Below are positions 2-16,014 of a stretch of DNA of 64,000 bases, piece after piece. The DNA is from an uncultured Pelagibacteraceae bacterium (GTDB taxonomy: Bacteria; Pseudomonadota; Alphaproteobacteria; Pelagibacterales; Pelagibacteraceae): NCBI GenBank assembly GCA_902582155.1, contig CACHRI010000004.1, positions 1 to 64,000 of the forward strand. The letters are read 5' to 3'. The translations under genes and the position numbers were made by a program. Positions within the stretch are counted from its first letter, which is position 1; every line of letters starts with the position of its first letter. The notes beneath the pieces are model-generated. The model searched no databases. It was given only the letters and a program-made list of their open reading frames with translations, and had not been told where the DNA came from.

Positions 2-412
2 CTTGAAATGTTAAAAGCTGCAAGAGAAGCAGTGAAAAAATATAATAAAAGTCTAAAAATTTTAGGCGTAACAGTGCTAACAAGTTTTTCTAATACTTCT
101 ATTAAGCAAGTAGGTCATACAAAATCTATAAAGGAAATAGTTAGAAGGCAAGTTTTACTCGCCAAAGATGCAAAACTTGACGGTATAGTTTGTTCAGCTC
201 ATGAGATTAAATACATTAAAAAAATCTGCAAAAAGATGGAAATTATCACTCCTGGAATAAGATTAAAAGGTGATAGAATTTATGATCAAACAAGAGTTAT
301 GTCTCCCAAGGAGGCATTTAAAAATGGAGCTACATCAATAGTTATGGGTAGAAGTTTAATTAAAGGTAACATAAAGAAAAACATTCAAAGATTAATTAAT
401 TCATTAAATTAG
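2..412 (+). CDS. pyrF: Orotidine 5'-phosphate decarboxylase, C-terminal part (5' end outside window)
   Basis: Frame open from window edge; motif TPGIRLKGDRIYDQTRVMSP typical of PyrF. Confidence 0.93.
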   Translation, partial: LEMLKAAREAVKKYNKSLKILGVTVLTSFSNTSIKQVGHTKSIKEIVRRQVLLAKDAKLDGIVCSAHEIKYIKKICKKMEIITPGIRLKGDRIYDQTRVMSPKEAFKNGATSIVMGRSLIKGNIKKNIQRLINSLN

Positions 413-415
413 TAT

Positions 416-1033
416 ATGAAATTAAAAGTTTGCGGTCTTTCTAATCCTATTGAAGTCGAAACTTGTATAAATATTAATGTTAGTTTCTGCGGGTTTATTC
501 TAAATTATCCTAAAAGTCATAGACATATATCGTACGAAAGAGCAGTAAATCTATTAAATATATCAAAGAAAAAAATTCAAAATGTCGGTGTATTAGTAAA
601 TCCAAGCTTAAGCGAATTAGAAAAATTTTCAAAACTTGATCTTGATTATTTTCAACTTTATGGTCAATACGATAACAATTCATTAACTAATATAAAGAAA
701 AAATTTCAAAAAAAAATTATTACAACTATACAAGTAAAACACAAAAGTGATGTGGATTTATACAAAATGGTTGAGGACCAGTCAGATATTATCTTATGGG
801 ATAGTACAGGATATGAAAAAAGTTTAGGCTGGAGTCATAATTGGATTAAAAATGTCAAAATAAAAGGTGAAAAAATGATAGCAGGCAACATAACAAAAGA
901 TAAACTTACCGATCTATCAAAATTGGCTGATATTGTTGATGTCTCTGGTGCTTTAGAAACAAATAAAGTAAAAGATATAAATAAAATTAAGGAATTCGCT
1001 ACACATATAAAGAAGATAAACAATGAGAATTAA
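416..1033 (+). CDS. trpF: Phosphoribosylanthranilate isomerase
   Basis: N-terminal KLKVCGLSNP motif, directly upstream of trpB/trpA. Confidence 0.93.
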   Translation: MKLKVCGLSNPIEVETCININVSFCGFILNYPKSHRHISYERAVNLLNISKKKIQNVGVLVNPSLSELEKFSKLDLDYFQLYGQYDNNSLTNIKKKFQKKIITTIQVKHKSDVDLYKMVEDQSDIILWDSTGYEKSLGWSHNWIKNVKIKGEKMIAGNITKDKLTDLSKLADIVDVSGALETNKVKDINKIKEFATHIKKINNEN

Positions 1034-2249
1034 AAAAGGCATACCATTAATAGATCAGCATGACAAAAATTTTATGTACGGGGGTAAATTTGGAGGCAAT
1101 TTTATTCCAGAAACTTTAAAAAAACCGATTGATGATCTCACAAAATTATTTGCCAAGTTGAGAAAAGACGAGAAATTTATAAAAGAGCGAGATTATTATT
1201 TTAAATCATATATAGGGGCGCCAACTCCATTTATAAAACTAGAAAATTTAACAAATTATCTTGGAGGTGCACAAATATATGCAAAAGTGGTATCTGAAGC
1301 AAATGGTGGAGCACATAAGATTTATAATGCAACAGTCCACTGTTTAATTGCAAAGAGAGCTGGTAAGAAATTTATAGTAGGGGATACTGGGGCTGGTTAC
1401 GCTGGAAAAATGCTCTCAATGGCTGCAAAAAAATTTGGTCTTAAATGTAAAATATTTATGGGAGCAAAAGACATTAAGAGACAACGGCCTAACGTTGAGG
1501 CAATAAAGAAAAATGGTGCAACAATCGTTCCTGTCACTTCAGGTAGTCAGACATTAGTGGATGCTGTTAGTGAATGTATGCGTTATTGGGTTGCAAATAA
1601 CGACACAACAAATATGTGTGTAGGTTCAACTGTAGGACCAAACATATTTATAAAAATATGTGCATGGAGTACTGCTCAAATTTCAAGAGAGTTAATTGAA
1701 CAAATTAAAGATGAGTTTGGAAGAATTCCTAAGAAAATAAAACTATTAAATTGTGTTGGCGGAGGAAGTTCTGCCATGGGGTTTTGGAATGAATTTATGG
1801 ACAGCGATGCCGAATTTATAGGTATTGAAGCTGGTGGTCCAAAAAATAGCAATTTACATGCTGCACCGTTGACAAATGGTTCTAAAATTGGAATTTTACA
1901 TGGGGCTGCACAATATGTTATTCAAGACAAAGAGGGGCAAATAGGAACAACAGAATCTATTTCTGCAGGTTTAGATTATCCAGGAATATCACCTCTCCAT
2001 TGTTTTCTTAAAGATTCAAAAAGAGCAAAATATACCTCGGCTACTGATGAGGAAGCCTTAAAAGCTTATAGATTAGTTTCTAAGTTAGAAAAAATTTCTC
2101 CATCTTTAGAACCCTCTCATGCATTTGCGGAGGCTATTAAAATAGCTCCAAAATTAAAATCTTCAGATATAATTATAGTTAACTCTTGTGGCGATAGCTT
2201 AAAAGATAAGGACATTATAAAAAAAAAATTAGGATCATACATAAGATGA
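1023..2249 (+). CDS. trpB: Tryptophan synthase beta chain
   Basis: GGKFGGNFIPE N-terminus, AHKIYNA PLP-lysine region, CVGGGSSAMG phosphate loop. Confidence 0.97.
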   Translation: MRIKKGIPLIDQHDKNFMYGGKFGGNFIPETLKKPIDDLTKLFAKLRKDEKFIKERDYYFKSYIGAPTPFIKLENLTNYLGGAQIYAKVVSEANGGAHKIYNATVHCLIAKRAGKKFIVGDTGAGYAGKMLSMAAKKFGLKCKIFMGAKDIKRQRPNVEAIKKNGATIVPVTSGSQTLVDAVSECMRYWVANNDTTNMCVGSTVGPNIFIKICAWSTAQISRELIEQIKDEFGRIPKKIKLLNCVGGGSSAMGFWNEFMDSDAEFIGIEAGGPKNSNLHAAPLTNGSKIGILHGAAQYVIQDKEGQIGTTESISAGLDYPGISPLHCFLKDSKRAKYTSATDEEALKAYRLVSKLEKISPSLEPSHAFAEAIKIAPKLKSSDIIIVNSCGDSLKDKDIIKKKLGSYIR

Positions 2250-13582: not shown

Positions 13583-13611
13583 ATAATTTAAAAAAAAATA
13601 AAAAATATGTT

Positions 13612-13640
13612 AATAAGGGATAATGTCATTATCCCTTATT
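13612..13640 (+). terminator. Perfect hairpin AATAAGGGATAAT-GTC-ATTATCCCTTATT followed by TTTAATTT
   Basis: 13-bp perfect inverted repeat, 3-nt loop, U-rich tail. Confidence 0.7.
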
Positions 13641-13793
13641 TTAATTTGCGTATTTATTTTTGTAATATTAATCATAGTACCGCTATTTTTTAGTAAAAAA
13701 GCTGAAGATAATTCTAAAATCAATAGTGAGTGGGATAAAATCAGAGAGTATGGAAAAAAATTGAATGAAAAATCAAGAAACAATAAAAATTAA
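13623..13793 (+). CDS. Small membrane-anchored protein (56 aa)
   Basis: ORF MSLSLILICVFIFVILIIVPLFFSKKAEDNSKINSEWDKIREYGKKLNEKSRNNKN; stop overlaps next start (TAATG). Confidence 0.6.
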   Translation: MSLSLILICVFIFVILIIVPLFFSKKAEDNSKINSEWDKIREYGKKLNEKSRNNKN

Positions 13794-14842
13794 TGAAATT
13801 ATATTTATTATATTTTTTAACAATAAATATATTATTTTCATATAATGTTATGGCGGAAAAACCTTACCATCACTTAGCAGACGGAACTTTTAGAAATCCA
13901 GAAGGATCGCCAGAAAGAGATCCTAATATTAAATGGTCATATAAAATTTTCAATGAAGAGAGAAAAAAAATCAAAATTGATTTTCCTAAAGATCATGTTG
14001 TTCCAAAAGATAAAGTTTTAAAAGATCTTAATGATAATTTAAATAGTGATTATATTGCCTGGATAGGACATGCTACATTTATAATAAAACTTGGAAATAC
14101 AACAATCATTACTGATCCATTGTTTTCAAAGAATACTGGTCCATTAATTTTCGGACCAAAAAGATATGTTAATCCAGCAATAAATTTAAGTGAAGTGCCT
14201 AAAACAGATGTTTTTCTTCTCACGCATAATCATTATGACCATCTTGATTTAAATACTGTTAGAAATTTTCCACATAAAAATACCAAAGTAATTACTCCTC
14301 TAAAATTATCTAAGTATTTCACCCGTTACAAAGATGTAAATGAATTAGACTGGTATGAAAAAGTAGTAATTAATAAAGAATTACAAATCACCTTATTACC
14401 TGCTGTCCATTGGTCAAAAAGAAGTTTGTTTGACACTAATAAAACTTTATGGGGAAACTACTTAATTGAATATAAAGATAAAAAAATTCTTTTTGCTTGT
14501 GATACGGGAGTTGGAAATATTTATAAAGACCTAGGAAACAAGTATGGTCCGATTGATATTACTTTTATAAATATTGGTGCATATAATTTTTTTCCAATAA
14601 TGCCAAAAAAAGATAAGTCTGTTTATCATACAAATCCCGAGGAAGCTTTAGGTTTAGCAAGAGATCTGAAAAGTAAAAAAGTAATAGGAATGCACTGGGG
14701 TACGGTTATCCTTTCATTAGAACCAATCATGGAGCCACCTGAAAGATTTAAAAATAATGCAGAAAAATTTGGTTTTAAAAAAAAAGATGCAATTATTTTT
14801 AAAATTGGTCAAGTAACTAAGCTATCTGAAATACTTAATTAA
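13793..14842 (+). CDS. MBL-fold metal-dependent hydrolase (UlaG/NAPE-PLD-like)
   Basis: LLTHNHYDHLDL, signal peptide, FACDTGVGNIYKDLG, IGMHWGT. Confidence 0.9.
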   Translation: MKLYLLYFLTINILFSYNVMAEKPYHHLADGTFRNPEGSPERDPNIKWSYKIFNEERKKIKIDFPKDHVVPKDKVLKDLNDNLNSDYIAWIGHATFIIKLGNTTIITDPLFSKNTGPLIFGPKRYVNPAINLSEVPKTDVFLLTHNHYDHLDLNTVRNFPHKNTKVITPLKLSKYFTRYKDVNELDWYEKVVINKELQITLLPAVHWSKRSLFDTNKTLWGNYLIEYKDKKILFACDTGVGNIYKDLGNKYGPIDITFINIGAYNFFPIMPKKDKSVYHTNPEEALGLARDLKSKKVIGMHWGTVILSLEPIMEPPERFKNNAEKFGFKKKDAIIFKIGQVTKLSEILN

Positions 14843-16014
14843 TTTAATTTTTTTTTGTACTCTCTGTCAATCATCGAAGTAAGTGAGTCAACAAGTGCGT
14901 CTGAAAACTTAAAAATTTCATTCGGCATATATTCGTTAGACTGATTATTTGTTGGATTAGTTTTATCTTCAACGATTATATTTGATGTTGGATCATTATC
15001 TTTCAAATATACTAACATAATCCAATTTTCATCTAACTCTTCATCTAATTTAATGAAAATTTCAGATGTTTCATATCGTCTATCAATAACTCTTAATAAT
15101 GACATTTTTTTTGGTAACCATCTTCTATTAAGTTGGAAAATACATGAAGCCATACTTCTATAAAAACTTTCAAGATTATTTTCGATTTTTTCCCTTGCTA
15201 TATTAAATTGTCTCTCTTTTTCTAATAAATCAGATCTAGTATCCTGATCTGATACTTCGATACCAAGTTGTTCAATTCTCTCTCTTATTTTTTGATCTCT
15301 GATTGCTTGATATTTAATTTTAATCTTCTCAATTCTTTCTTGGACTTCCTCGTAGTTTTCTCTTTCTTGCTTTAATACTACCCGCTCTAGATTTTTAATT
15401 TCTATGGCCTCTCTTTTTCTAAATTGTTCAATTTTCTTCTCTAGTCTAATTTTTTCATAAAACAGCCTTTGCTTTTCAGCTTGTTCTTTTCTTACCTGTG
15501 CTTGTTCTTCCCTAATAAACTTTCTTAGTTCAATTTTTCTTTCTTTAACTAATTTAATCTCTTCTTTTATCTCACTTTGTTTTGCTTTTAACTCTTCTTG
15601 CTTCATCATTTTATCTCTTCTAATAATTTCATCTTTTTCTTTTTTCATTTTTTTAAGCTTTTCTTTTCTTTTTCTATCTCGCTCTTCTTCAATCACTTCT
15701 TTGAAAGAGCTAATTTTGTCTGATATATTTTGAAAAAAACTTTGCAGTTTTTGATCTATATTAAAGTTAATTTTAAAATTAAAACTAAATTTATCAGTAA
15801 ATTTTATAATTTTTCTAAAAGTTTCTTTAGAGGAGCTTTTTTTCCTTTTAAATTTTATCTTTCTTTTTTTATAAATAAATTTTCGTCTTTTCTTAGAAAA
15901 ACGTTTTCTAATTTTTTTTGTCCTTTTTTTAAATTTTGTTCTTCTTCTTGATCTTCTTTTAATTTTCGGTTTTTTTTTAATTTTTGATTTTTTTCTTATT
16001 TTCTTTTTTTTCAT
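14839..16014 (-). CDS. Hypothetical protein: very basic N-terminus, long coiled coil, C-terminal globular region
   Basis: About 60 N-terminal residues mostly K/R, then K/E/R heptad-like coil, then non-repetitive C-terminus. Confidence 0.75.
   Translation of the reverse strand: MKKKKIRKKSKIKKKPKIKRRSRRRTKFKKRTKKIRKRFSKKRRKFIYKKRKIKFKRKKSSSKETFRKIIKFTDKFSFNFKINFNIDQKLQSFFQNISDKISSFKEVIEEERDRKRKEKLKKMKKEKDEIIRRDKMMKQEELKAKQSEIKEEIKLVKERKIELRKFIREEQAQVRKEQAEKQRLFYEKIRLEKKIEQFRKREAIEIKNLERVVLKQERENYEEVQERIEKIKIKYQAIRDQKIRERIEQLGIEVSDQDTRSDLLEKERQFNIAREKIENNLESFYRSMASCIFQLNRRWLPKKMSLLRVIDRRYETSEIFIKLDEELDENWIMLVYLKDNDPTSNIIVEDKTNPTNNQSNEYMPNEIFKFSDALVDSLTSMIDREYKKKLN

Follow-up and report, generated by a model that had tools for sequence, protein, structure and literature searches.

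An RNA hairpin around the first start codon downstream of a lipoprotein gene, conserved across a genus of SAR11 bacteria

The junction between a putative lipoprotein gene and the gene that follows it in a SAR11 (Pelagibacterales) genome carries a hairpin that, judged by sequence comparison, is a selected RNA element. Comparisons among relatives demonstrated its existence as a predicted sense-strand RNA structure, its fixed position and its persistence. Evolution has kept the hairpin while the downstream gene was repeatedly rearranged, which suggests that it is probably an RNA control point keeping the output of the second gene below that of the first. With a probability of about one half, we propose a dual role for the hairpin: it would end or protect the lipoprotein mRNA and also occlude the downstream start codon, leading to unequal expression of the two genes.

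The window, the whole 64,000-nucleotide stretch of SAR11 genome DNA that we analyzed, contains on its forward strand and in this order the lipoprotein ORF, the hairpin, an ORF for a 56-aa membrane protein and a hydrolase gene (Table 1). The lipoprotein had no match in Pfam or NCBIfam, and homologues of it were present at 198 loci (overlapping loci counted). The 56-aa ORF, which is 53-67% identical to the first relatives found, was carried by Pelagibacteraceae single cells and MAGs, including 'Ca. Pelagibacter ubique HIMB058', and has nine invariant residues (L5, P20, S24, K26, E36, W37, K39, I40 and Y43). Its dN/dS of approximately 0.02-0.2 in most of the pairs compared is indicative of purifying selection and implies that the ORF is translated although its start is buried in the stem. 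A candidate assignment as a DsbG_N homologue scored 20.7 bits, below the cut-off of 25, and was deemed spurious. The stop codon of the small ORF shares a TAATG with the ATG of the hydrolase, an overlap that had been reported in the initial annotation and that we also saw. The hydrolase matched Lactamase_B_2 (PF12706, E = 1e-31), and its best solved relative was human NAPE-PLD (4qn9, E = 1e-49, residues 88-342). Positions 14839-16014 (minus strand) encode a 391-aa protein with a very Lys/Arg-rich N-terminus and without Pfam match; a similar protein is also encoded downstream of the hydrolase in L144, L145 and L149.

Table 1. Features at the lipoprotein/hydrolase junction (positions in the window)
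Feature	Position	Strand	Remarks
Putative lipoprotein, 67 aa	13379..13582	+	ORF; first gene of the unit
A/T-rich spacer, 29 nt	13583..13611	+	Lipoprotein stop to stem
Foot RTG (here ATG)	13607..13609	+	Immediately before the stem; not in the reading frame of the 56-aa ORF
Junction hairpin	13612..13640	+	5' arm 13612-13624, loop GTC 13625-13627, 3' arm 13628-13640
Apex AUG start codon	13623..13625	+	Hairpin tip
56-aa single-pass membrane ORF	13623..13793	+	Conserved protein
Metallo-beta-lactamase-fold hydrolase, NAPE-PLD-like	13793..14842	+	Signal peptide; start within TAATG

The hairpin (AATAAGGGATAAT-GTC-ATTATCCCTTATT) is the perfect 13-bp structure that had been described from the window, with the A and U of the start codon in the upper stem and the G in the loop. 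The in-frame TAA three codons upstream of this ATG was located at 13614-13616, and the hydrophobic segment has indeed no alternative start, the next in-frame ATG, GTG or TTG being a TTG at about codon 46, beyond the segment. The further claim that the apex ATG is the only start codon held in the subgroup of the window but failed in many relatives, in which an in-frame ATG or GTG is also present at the stem foot. Folding of the 98 nt around the hairpin gave a z-score of -3.0, and the predicted energy of its start-codon window (-13.8 kcal/mol) was far outside the range of the 61 other gene starts of the 64-kb window used as the null (mean -3.2, sd 2.1, minimum -9.9).

All 53 distinct orthologous starts carry the hairpin. 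A covariance model built from 42 variants detected it in 129 of 169 genus genomes, at essentially one locus per genome, and in all 14 of the genus genomes at least 90% complete; the same search found none in the sampled genomes of other genera. In the tested subset of genus genomes without the hairpin, most also gave no detectable match to the hydrolase or the lipoprotein. The two genes, when both were found in sister genera, are widely separated, and we saw no hairpin of this type ahead of the hydrolase there. In L265, L268 and L269, which represent other genera of the family, a cold-shock-protein-like ORF starting MSIKGKVKWFNG, not the hydrolase, comes after the lipoprotein homologue. We examined 93 distinct lipoprotein-downstream junctions for spacing, U-runs and the position of the AUG. 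The distance from the lipoprotein stop to the stem was 26-29 nt in almost all of them (median 27, range 18-51), and the spacer sequence varied between subgroups while its length stayed nearly constant. The loop also varied, both in length (3 to 16 nt) and in sequence (GTC, TGAATT, GCGA, TGTA and others). The AAGGG/CCCTT of the stem, on the other hand, was invariant apart from one clade (L005, L066 and L086), in which a wholly different stem sequence (GCACAGTAT..ATACTGTGC) brackets the same AUG. The initial annotation had staked its proposal on conservation of the hairpin together with its ATG, and both have been kept among relatives.

Selection for pairing was evident at the base pair above the GGG, which is G-C in 23, A-U in 13 and G-U in 6 sequences and never A-C. 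Its covariation score in alignment A2 exceeded that of all shuffles, and it switched between A-U, G-U and G-C at least 14 times on the hydrolase tree. The counts of changes are approximate, since this tree was built quickly, has long branches and may be affected by recombination. Across the core stem, gains of G-U outnumbered gains of A-C (12 vs 2, and 8 vs 0 at the variable pair), pointing to the sense strand as the one that folds. We relied on A2 and the tree because the pair count of alignment A3 includes antisense matches of the near-palindrome. Double compensations were identified at the stem foot of L223 (UUAAGGGG/CCCCUUAA) and L226 (AGUAAGGG/CCCUUACU). On the coding side of the stem, codon 5 (Leu) was CTT in 48 of 48 sequences, consistent with constraint at the nucleotide level, and codon 4, where Pro, was CCC in 18 of 18, yet Pro20 was never CCC. 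Codon choice, covariation and persistence in other ORFs ruled out a chance palindrome forced by coding. A dimeric DNA operator was likewise ruled out by the variable gap between GGG and CCC (10, 11, 12, 16 and more) and by the excess of G-U over A-C on the sense strand.

What lies downstream of the hairpin is variable. The stem may be followed by the 56-aa ORF and then the hydrolase, directly by a hydrolase whose signal peptide starts at the apex AUG (MRIPLIL.., MYRPLII.. or MKLPLNI..), or by a remnant of 20-24 codons that ends in TAATG (L171, L172 and L228). By an approximate count, the downstream architecture changed at least 12 times on the hydrolase tree with the hairpin retained. Where the 56-aa ORF was lost or shortened, the hairpin persisted and usually encloses the hydrolase's own start codon. 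An automatic test placed the AUG at the apex in 82 of the 93 distinct junctions, a count that misses the replaced-stem clade and L231 (ATG in the upper stem); the exceptions are L224, L229 and L230 and the junctions with a different hairpin. Thus, every junction examined has some hairpin, with the start at its apex in most. The comparison shows that, no matter which gene comes next, its first predicted start codon normally lies within the hairpin. L224, L229 and L230 keep the stem but have AUU as the apex codon and start translation, as predicted, at a foot GTG or just 3' of the stem. Their retention of the hairpin without an apex AUG suggests that gating of the start is not its sole role. In two related genomes (L141 and L242) the hairpin at the junction is a different one, a longer AT-rich inverted repeat without U-tract (GTGCTATTAAG..CTTAATAGCAC and CTAGTGTTATTA..TAATAACACTAG, respectively).

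In the dual role that we propose, the locus would be a transcription unit of two or three genes (lipoprotein, optional 56-aa membrane protein and NAPE-PLD-like hydrolase). Behind the ribosome terminating on the lipoprotein gene, the stable stem would form and end or protect the lipoprotein mRNA, the stop-to-stem distance being close to that required for a hairpin to clear a terminating ribosome and fold (PMC4824070). The stem may block 3'-5' exonucleases and perhaps also terminate some of the transcripts. In read-through mRNA, the same stem would bury the initiation region of the next ORF, so that output of the membrane protein and hydrolase would be lower or conditional, with the hydrolase translated by coupling at the TAATG. 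Because the stem is predicted to be too stable to breathe open at sea temperature, it would have to be opened actively, whether by a ribosome, a helicase or a binding factor. The natural variants argue against either half of this role acting alone: the apex AUU of L224, L229 and L230 counts against start occlusion as the essential function, and the apex AUG in most variants, together with the replaced stem, against a pure 3'-end function. Of the initial proposal that the hairpin is both terminator and translation gate, the double role at the lipoprotein 3' end and the next start fits best, though with an apex AUG that is dispensable in three relatives; canonical termination, a thermometer and an antiterminator did not hold up. 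No competing conserved structure was seen that could support antitermination, the spacer sequence is not conserved, and searches of Rfam returned no family at gathering score and only chance-level matches below it, offering no indication of a riboswitch.

Known systems provide precedents for parts of this role. The closest precedent comes from differential mRNA decay in Escherichia coli, where intra-operon hairpins without U-tract, mostly located inside the downstream coding sequence, protect the upstream genes of the operon and show wobble conservation (PMC5927463). The SAR11 hairpin resembles those of the malE-malF type in being stable, on the 3' side of the first gene and devoid of a U-tract, in overlapping the next coding sequence and in its wobble-constrained conservation at a cistron junction. 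Unlike the E. coli hairpins, which are on average 107 nt inside the downstream gene, it sits at codons 1-7 around the start, and protection of the 3' end would be by analogy. The E. coli galE hairpin also lies past the first cistron and within the next gene and sets a distinct mRNA for the first gene (PMC9239205, PMC11925234), but its distance from the galE stop is some 110-130 nt and initiation at galT stays exposed, whereas the SAR11 start codon is inside the stem-loop. Conserved cis-acting RNA structures have been proposed in Pelagibacter (PMC2704228), among them a hairpin with an inverted-repeat foot that is followed by poly-U in about half of the cases, yet those candidates are in different genes and a different clade. 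More tentatively, and with the odds somewhat against it, the junction hairpin could represent a lineage-specific class of cis-regulatory RNA, the 'apex-start hairpin', in which one stem ends the upstream message and locks the next start. Such a module would survive deletion, fusion, shortening or swapping of the gene downstream, with a stem open to complete rewriting and a constant architecture.

An alternative is that the hairpin is a dedicated translational switch, with an RNA-binding protein or small RNA using it as operator and any effect on the 3' end being incidental. The location of the AUG at the apex in most variants, replaced stem included, agrees with such a switch, as does the hydrolase start usually taking over the place of the lost small ORF in the hairpin. 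The invariant AAGGG/CCCTT is also in its favor and could reflect recognition by some factor rather than structure alone. The operator of the replicase gene in ssRNA phages is similarly a small hairpin on a polycistronic RNA, where it encloses the start codon of a gene further downstream (PMC3561173). The phage operator keeps specific unpaired purines for binding of the coat protein, however, while the SAR11 loop has no conserved loop or bulge nucleotides and varies freely in length and sequence, unlike a typical protein-bound loop. Given also the three relatives without apex AUG and the lack of any candidate regulator among our findings, we consider a dedicated switch unlikely.

The hairpin could also be a weak intrinsic terminator, or an attenuator, that serves the lipoprotein gene and overlaps the following gene as a result of genome streamlining. 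Like a terminator, it is a stem-loop after a gene (29 nt past the lipoprotein stop in the window), at a median distance of 27 nt that suits folding behind the ribosome (PMC4824070), and other AAGGG..CCCTT hairpins at gene ends of the window's genome are terminators. Further, L243 and L244 (their junction scored as L248/L249) carry at the homologous place a true T8 terminator (AAAAGGGCTAGATTTATCTAGCCCTTTTTTTT), with the start outside. Unlike intrinsic terminators, nearly all variants are missing the U-tract, which argues against the canonical terminator that had been proposed for the lipoprotein gene. The reported U-rich run (TTATTTTAATTT) does have 6 U in 8 positions, but the run past the last G-C pair is only 2 U, as in 80 of the 93 distinct junctions (tails such as TTATTCTGTGTA, TAAATTATG and GTAGCTAT), and one clade has no U tail after the stem. 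The foot pairing of L226 was kept by compensation as its U content dropped, and strong termination would shut off a downstream gene that is conserved and translated. These observations make a weak terminator quite improbable. Very improbable is a promoter in the 5' part, in which TRTGNTAATAAGGG would serve as an extended -10 with a G-rich discriminator and a leaderless mRNA without the 5' arm would begin at the AUG. The TG of the TRTG-like stretch is invariant in 50 aligned orthologues and the AUG is 5-7 nt past TAATAA in most variants, but the hexamer does not end in the T that is critical in TATAAT, the replaced-stem clade does not have the element, and the compensatory changes between arms and the G-U bias are left unexplained. 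An RNA thermometer that melts on warming would account for a sequestered initiation region but has a negligible likelihood, because the stem is predicted in silico to stay paired from 5 to 70 °C and has no four-U or ROSE-like imperfect pairing.

SAR11 bacteria are among the most abundant of the ocean and, to our knowledge, few regulators are known in them. If the dual role is correct, a genus-wide RNA element that sets how much lipoprotein is made relative to a NAPE-PLD-like (phospholipid-acting) enzyme would join a short list of known controls of this kind. The many natural variants, with the start inside or outside the stem, the stem replaced or a true terminator, provide a ready series to separate occlusion of translation from protection of the mRNA 3' end.

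The RTG at the foot of the stem is present as ATG or GTG in 50 of 50 aligned orthologues (alignment A2, columns 2-4) and is lost in L228. Its frame matches that of the following ORF only in certain subgroups, for which reason we rejected it as a universal upstream ORF, and its invariance is not accounted for by pairing. The frame that opens at the foot ATG of L230 (615-700; MIIRGIKLSLIFICKQ) stops just inside the hydrolase start, a possible variant of translational coupling. The body of the L229 hydrolase (266-1402, minus strand) is a clearly different metallo-beta-lactamase sequence, whereas the N-terminal region and the C-terminal tail are similar to their L224 counterparts, as though recombination had exchanged the sequence downstream of the same hairpin.
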